Source: Thermococcus sp. P6 (GTDB taxonomy: Archaea; Methanobacteriota_B; Thermococci; Thermococcales; Thermococcaceae). From it: a stretch of 64,000 nt of DNA. The position numbers and the translations under genes were made by a program. The stretch is from positions 1,240,001-1,304,000 of the forward strand of contig NZ_CP015104.1 of NCBI RefSeq assembly GCF_002214525.1. Direction: 5' to 3'. Position 1 is the stretch's first letter; every line of letters begins with the position of its first letter. Below, in pieces: positions 18,337 to 26,436 of this stretch. Under the pieces are notes generated by a model that was given only the letters and a program-made list of their open reading frames with translations, was not told where the DNA came from and did no database searches.

Positions 18337-18339
18337 ACT

Positions 18340-18394
18340 GCGGATGATGATAGCGAATTGCACCGAGCTGTGACGAAAACCCCTCCTGACGCCG
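18340..18394 (+). ncRNA. box C/D guide RNA, first of a tandem pair
   Basis: Ordered boxes are visible. C is ATGATGA (18344-18350), then a 12-nt guide (18351-18362) and D' CCGA (18363-18366). C' is GTGACGA (18370-18376), then a 9-nt guide (18377-18385) and D CTGA (18386-18389). The 12-nt C-to-D' spacing and the full C/D'/C'/D order are typical of archaeal methylation guides bound by L7Ae, Nop5 and fibrillarin. The closing stem is short and imperfect. The D' guide would direct methylation of an A, the D guide of a G; I could not name either target. The TATA box at 18309-18317 fits a start at about 18340. Confidence 0.72.
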
Positions 18395-18473
18395 TTCCGG
18401 ACGGGCTGTGACGATTCCAAGACGGGCTGAGCGGGGCTATGACGTACCCTATGAGCGCCGAGCCCGTCCGGGA
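18395..18473 (+). ncRNA. box C/D guide RNA, predicted to methylate C34 of elongator tRNA-Met
   Basis: Boxes: C GTGACGA (18408-18414), 12-nt guide (18415-18426), D' CTGA (18427-18430), C' ATGACGT (18439-18445), 12-nt guide (18446-18457), D CCGA (18458-18461). A perfect 10-bp terminal stem (CCGGACGGGC at 18397-18406 with 18462-18471) closes the structure next to C and D, as a K-turn RNA requires. The D guide forms 10 contiguous pairs with the tRNA-Met gene at 26363-26372. Its fifth base before box D (18453) pairs with wobble C34. The D' guide resembles the complement of a conserved 23S motif. Archaeal guides for Cm34 are established; the pairing here is read from sequence. Confidence 0.86.
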
Positions 18474-18541: not shown

Positions 18542-19030
18542 TCAGCTTCTGCCTTTTCCCTTCCTTTTCCTCGGTATGAGCCTAACCGGACTCCCGCAGT
18601 CGGGACACACCCCCTCCGGTGGCATCTTCTCAAACCGCTTTCCACAGCCCGTGCAGACGTAGTTCCAGCGGATTACCCTTTTTATTCCCCTTTTGAGGGT
18701 TTTGAAGGTTATCCCAAGGGTTTTCGCCACGTTCTGAAGGTTGTAGTCGTCCGTGAGGAGAACGGCCCCGAGCTCATAAGCCAGAGCCAGAACCTCAAGA
18801 TCGGCCTCGCTGAGCTCCTCCAGCTCTCCCGTCCTTCTGGCGGCCTCCTCGACCATCCTCACGCTTTCCCTGGATGGGACCCTTACGATCACCTTGCCCG
18901 CGTTCATGAGGCCTTCAAGGAGGAGCCTCGACTCCGGATCCTTAACCTCCTCAACGACCTTTGGGGTTGTAAAGCCCTCCACGTCAACTCCCTGAATGAA
19001 CATTGCAGCGTCGATAACGTAGACGGTCAT
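18542..19030 (-). CDS. nob1: rRNA maturation endonuclease Nob1
   Basis: The 162-residue protein has an N-terminal PIN nuclease domain ([10 protein letters not shown] with Asp7; acidic residues in [13 protein letters not shown] and LTDDYNLQN) and a C-terminal zinc ribbon (CTGCGKRF and CPDCGS). Nob1 cuts the 3' end of 16S rRNA during small-subunit maturation. The extreme C-terminus is very basic (RKRKGKG), suited to RNA binding. All four zinc cysteines and the PIN acidic residues are present. It is convergent with the C/D RNA pair. Confidence 0.92.
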
Positions 19031-26330: not shown

Positions 26331-26436
26331 GCCGGGGTAGCTTAGCCTGGTCAGAGCGCTCGGCTCATAGGGCGCTTCCTTCGGGGAAGCCTGAGAAACC
26401 GAGAGGTCCGGGGTTCAAAGCCCCGCCCCGGCACCA
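26331..26436 (+). tRNA. elongator tRNA-Met (anticodon CAT) with a 28-base intron
   Basis: The acceptor GCCGGGG pairs with CCCCGGC (26426-26432) and an ACCA end is encoded (26433-26436). The anticodon stem CTCGG (26359-26363) pairs with CCGAG (26399-26403); the anticodon is 26366-26368. An intron at 26370-26397 follows position 37 and can form the bulge-helix-bulge needed by the splicing endonuclease (GCTTCC/GGAAGC inside). The first pair G-C and the intron mark the elongator rather than the initiator. Its last 22 bases overlap the convergent XPD gene. It is the predicted target of the C/D RNA at 18395-18473. Confidence 0.93.

Follow-up and report, generated by a model that had tools for sequence, protein, structure and literature searches.

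In a window of 64,000 nucleotides from Thermococcus sp. P6, part of a 1.52 Mb archaeal genome, we identified a complete dual box C/D sRNA gene (18399-18469, + strand) that is related to the sR-tMet and sR41 guides and kept across the family. Very probably, the D guide of this sRNA acts on the unspliced elongator tRNA-Met and would direct 2'-O-methylation of its wobble base, C34, before splicing. Both the mechanism and the methylation on the precursor are already published and are not new here, which limits the interest of the finding in the window itself. What is new is the comparative sequence evidence that the guide and the intron to which it pairs have changed together during evolution.

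Architecture of the sRNA gene

The original prediction covered positions 18439-18461, which do hold the half of the gene made up of box C', guide and box D; read from the sequence, the whole sRNA spans 18399-18469. It is enclosed by a terminal stem of eight pairs, in which the 5' arm GGACGGGC (18399-18406) pairs with the 3' arm GCCCGTCC (18462-18469), all elements lying on the + strand. In an alignment of 14 same-genus relatives compensatory changes on both sides are seen at six of the eight pairs, and 97% of the cells are paired; this stem frames a predicted kink-turn. A single T separates the 5' arm from box C (GTGACGA, 18408-18414), a variant of RTGATGA that the alignment also recovers, and this is followed by the D' guide TTCCAAGACGGG (18415-18426), box D' (CTGA, 18427-18430), the spacer GCGGGGCT, box C' (ATGACGT, 18439-18445, likewise seen in the alignment), the D guide ACCCTATGAGCG (18446-18457) and box D (CCGA, 18458-18461), a variant of CTGA. 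The box upstream of the tRNA-Met guide is thus box C' and not box C, and box D reads CCGA rather than CUGA. The order C, D', C', D with guides of about 10-12 nt is that of archaeal box C/D sRNAs, with three of the boxes (C, C' and D) off-consensus.

Most other genera have CTGA as box D, in contrast to the CCGA of the window sRNA. The combination of a GTGACGA box C with a CCGA box D would place C-C where the kink-turn usually has U-U, and the haloarchaeal sR-tMet model has the same box types.

Directly upstream on the same strand lies a second box C/D sRNA (approximately 18339-18393), which is likely to be co-transcribed with the tRNA-Met sRNA. Its D' guide AGCGAATTGCA matches TGCAATTCGCT in 23S rRNA over 11 bp, and its D guide varies among same-genus relatives. 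We considered whether the element described here could be a fragment of this neighbor and rejected the idea because the boxes and the stem mark off two separate RNAs. The neighboring gene at 18542-19030, on the - strand, encodes a ribonuclease that has a PIN domain and a zinc ribbon.

Pairing with the elongator tRNA-Met precursor

The elongator tRNA-Met(CAU) gene of the window (26331-26436, + strand, CCA included) carries a 28-nt intron, GGGCGCTTCCTTCGGGGAAGCCTGAGAA (26370-26397), at the canonical 37/38 position. As ARAGORN and the Rfam tRNA model both missed this intron-containing gene, it was identified through its sequence and orthology; all 94 genomes of the family gave DNA matches to it. 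In its bulge-helix-bulge core CTCA (26364-26367) pairs with TGAG and TAG forms the 5' bulge, and AAA is also part of the splice-site motif; when the precursor RNA was folded in silico, neither the cloverleaf nor this splice motif appeared in the minimum-energy structure.

A C/D guide aimed at C34 of the elongator tRNA-Met across the intron junction, as originally predicted, is supported by the boxes, the N+5 register, the Rfam similarity, the conservation and the co-variation (the strongest). The computed pairing agrees with the prediction throughout: positions 18447-18456 form ten unbroken pairs, all of them Watson-Crick, with the target site GCTCATAGGG (26363-26372), and G18453, five bases ahead of box D, faces C34 (C26366), in keeping with the N+5 rule. 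Three of these pairs come from the intron bases 26370-26372, and the spliced tRNA-Met is limited to seven. The D guide hence has the features of a tRNA-Met C34 guide, with intron bases included in its target. The initiator tRNA-Met (L114) and tRNA-Ile(CAU) (L099, L104) encoded in the same genome offer only GCTCATA, that is, seven pairs.

Relationship to known guide RNAs

In a search with 241 bases, Rfam model RF02163 (sR-tMet) matched at 18403-18465 with an E value of 6.8e-4 and 30 bits, below its gathering score of 50, and RF01126 (sR41) at 18405-18463 with 12.4 bits, below its gathering score of 54. Orthologous sRNAs with the same guide from other genera of Thermococcaceae pass the gathering score of RF01126. 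Judged by its sequence, the locus is a same-function relative of sR-tMet and sR41, in a form that falls below the cut-off of both models. With sR-tMet it shares the guide core CCCUAUGAG, the target C34 of the elongator pre-tRNA-Met, the terminal stem, a D'-C' stem, the CCGA box D and the GACG-type C boxes, whereas the D' guide, the spacer and the archaeal lineage differ. sR-tMet was described by Joardar et al. 2011 (cited in PMC6601510 and PMC4033218) for the pre-tRNA-Met of Haloferax volcanii. The guide in the sR41 model, CCCUAUGAGcgCUGA, is the same as that of the window sRNA; however, the form found in the window and in its same-genus relatives is set apart by a long covarying terminal stem, the CCGA box D, a longer D'-C' spacer and a D' guide that matches 23S rRNA.

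sR41 is probably the sRNA named sR49 in PMC2584109. That study of 2008 describes a free sRNA guiding Cm34 of archaeal pre-tRNA-Met, gives sR49 of Pyrococcus by name together with a list of 18 candidates, and deduces from the participation of intron bases in the pairing that methylation must precede splicing. A free sRNA that pairs with the intron is given for Cm34 of pre-tRNA-Met in PMC4033218 as well. A Pyrococcus sRNA is also listed for the tRNA-Met wobble base in PMC7994747, and PMC6601510 reports that archaeal C/D RNPs make Cm34 of elongator tRNA-Met. The tRNA-Trp intron guide (sR50) is another C/D guide acting on C34 of an intron-containing pre-tRNA, but in that case the guide is the intron, whereas the window has a separate gene for the guide. 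The human SNORD97 and SCARNA97 are likewise C/D guides that direct Cm34 formation in elongator tRNA-Met (PMC6601510); unlike the window sRNA they are eukaryotic and pair with the tRNA anticodon stem-loop.

Conservation and co-variation of guide and intron

The pattern of C' box, guide and D box is present in 89 of 94 Thermococcaceae genomes. Four of the five remaining genomes are 53-86% complete, and in the fifth (G065) a contig end cuts the sRNA region. When 21 genomes from other families of the class were searched for the pattern with the Thermococcaceae guide, none gave a match. In each of the 70 Thermococcaceae genomes in which it was read, the tRNA-Met intron starts with GGG, and the later intron bases vary; no intronless elongator tRNA-Met was encountered among the genomes in which that gene was read. 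One intron (L183, in G045) is shortened to 16 bases and retains GGG and the splice motif.

The constancy of GGG within the family could have another cause as well, since these three bases are also part of the splice-site structure. This alternative is countered by the co-variation of guide and intron between families, which we compared in Thermococcaceae and four related families (f2-f5). Here the introns start with AGT (f2 and f4), AGC (f3) and AGCTC (f5). The genomes of f2-f5 were searched for the guide predicted from their own intron start, and C/D sRNAs with that guide and with N+5 on C34 were found in all four families, namely ACTTATGAG in f2 and f4, GCTTATGAG in f3 and GAGCTTATGAG in f5, the matched guide and intron of f4 coming from one genome (G110). 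Intron start and guide correspond as GGG/CCC, AGT/ACT and AGC/GCT. When guides and introns were swapped between families in a matrix, own guides paired with 3-5 intron bases in each family examined, and Thermococcaceae guides with 0 intron bases of f2-f5, the reverse combination likewise giving 0. Swaps among f2-f5 still paired 2-5 intron bases, the first two intron bases being common to these families. The N+5 register on C34 is retained in each lineage examined. This co-variation across five families is evidence, beyond a single-genome prediction, that the pairing of guide and intron is under selection.

Proposed mechanism and alternatives

Archaeal C/D RNPs consist of the RNA together with L7Ae, Nop5 and fibrillarin, and they methylate the target base that faces the fifth position from box D. 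The window sRNA would, if expressed, assemble with these three proteins, and its D guide would pair with seven exon bases and three intron bases of the unspliced elongator tRNA-Met, whereupon the wobble C34 would receive its 2'-O-methyl group. In this complex the guide would occupy CTCA, a strand of the helix, and TAG, the 5' bulge, both of which are recognized by the splicing endonuclease. Because the guide covers both the central helix and the 5' bulge, guide pairing and recognition by the endonuclease are expected to be mutually exclusive. Methylation and splicing cannot share one fold, and methylation should therefore come first. The three intron pairs would add stability, and may set the elongator apart from the initiator tRNA-Met and the tRNA-Ile(CAU) with which it shares GCTCATA.

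The dependence on the intron may not be exclusive. Cm34 has been reported on the intronless initiator tRNA-Met of P. furiosus (PMC7668247), an observation that argues against full intron selectivity and suggests that seven pairs may suffice or that another enzyme may act. Together with the identical seven pairs offered by the initiator of the window's genome, it favors the proposal that the sRNA guides Cm34 without needing the intron, with the mature elongator and perhaps the initiator also being methylated and the intron match merely reflecting splice-site structure. We regard this proposal as unlikely, given that the intron bases change between families and the guide changes to match, and that seven pairs would equally fit tRNA-Ile(CAU), whose C34 becomes agmatidine in archaea (PMC7668247).

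It could also be proposed that the main role lies in regulation or folding, with the sRNP acting like a chaperone to hold back the splicing of the pre-tRNA-Met and the methyl group being secondary. Such a role would be in keeping with the way in which the guide covers the splice-site motif at its central helix and 5' bulge, but the unvarying placement of N+5 on C34 in all lineages examined, and the Cm34 of elongator tRNA-Met that the literature ascribes to archaeal C/D RNPs, make it very improbable in comparison with a guide for methylation. Loose units of C box, guide and D box number 20 on both strands of the window, as against 5-8 in simulations, and the expected number of loose C...D units per window that carry exactly this 10-mer in register is about 2e-5; this expectation, the conservation within the family, which by itself already refutes it, the covarying stem and the co-varying guide rule out chance complementarity in a non-functional stretch of DNA, a reading of negligible probability that has nothing but the sub-threshold Rfam score in its favor.

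The D' guide and a possible second docking site

Part of the D' guide, TCCAAGACGG, matches nucleotides 646-655 of 23S rRNA over 10 bp with N+5 at U649, which is probably its target. Among the matches listed, TCCAAGACGGG is identical in 30 distinct same-genus sRNAs, the pattern used for their selection itself containing TCCAAGACGGG. The tRNA-targeting sRNAs of Pyrobaculum have been described as being without a target for the other guide (PMC7994747); in contrast, the D' guide of the window sRNA matches 23S rRNA and its same-genus relatives keep it.

A different situation is seen in f4 (G108, G109, G110 and G112) and f5 (G113 and G114), which a named scan assigns to records of Methanofastidiosia and Theionarchaea. 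Their tRNA-Met introns (L310-L312, L340-L345, L303-L305) carry TTGGATTCA(T), beginning 12-15 bases into the intron. No string longer than TTGGATTCA is shared by all six introns, which, leaving aside the pair G113/G114, are 46-67% identical overall. Over a length of 9-11 bases this motif complements the D' guide ATGAATCCAAT of the same tRNA-Met sRNA, and an sRNA with this D' guide was found in G110, G111, G113 and G114. The same D' guide also fits a conserved 16S rRNA site, AATTGGATTCAACG, as read in the window's own rRNA, and five of the six introns match this guide one base further than 16S rRNA does. Upon shuffling, 0 or 1 of 5000 introns match the D' guide as well, shared descent lying outside this test. 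This raises the possibility, to which we would give slightly less than even chances, that one sRNA holds the pre-tRNA by both of its guides, the intron having acquired a look-alike of the rRNA target as a second docking site. Since G108, G109 and G112 yielded no such sRNA, and f2 has the D' guide without the intron motif, two-guide docking is a lead, not a result. If true, the tRNA intron would be a dedicated element through which the tRNA is recognized for its modification.

Biological implications

The retention of introns by certain archaeal tRNA genes is an open question, for which the pairing described here provides a clean case. The seven bases around C34 are common to three CAU tRNAs and, on paper at least, the intron would let one guide single out the elongator from among them.
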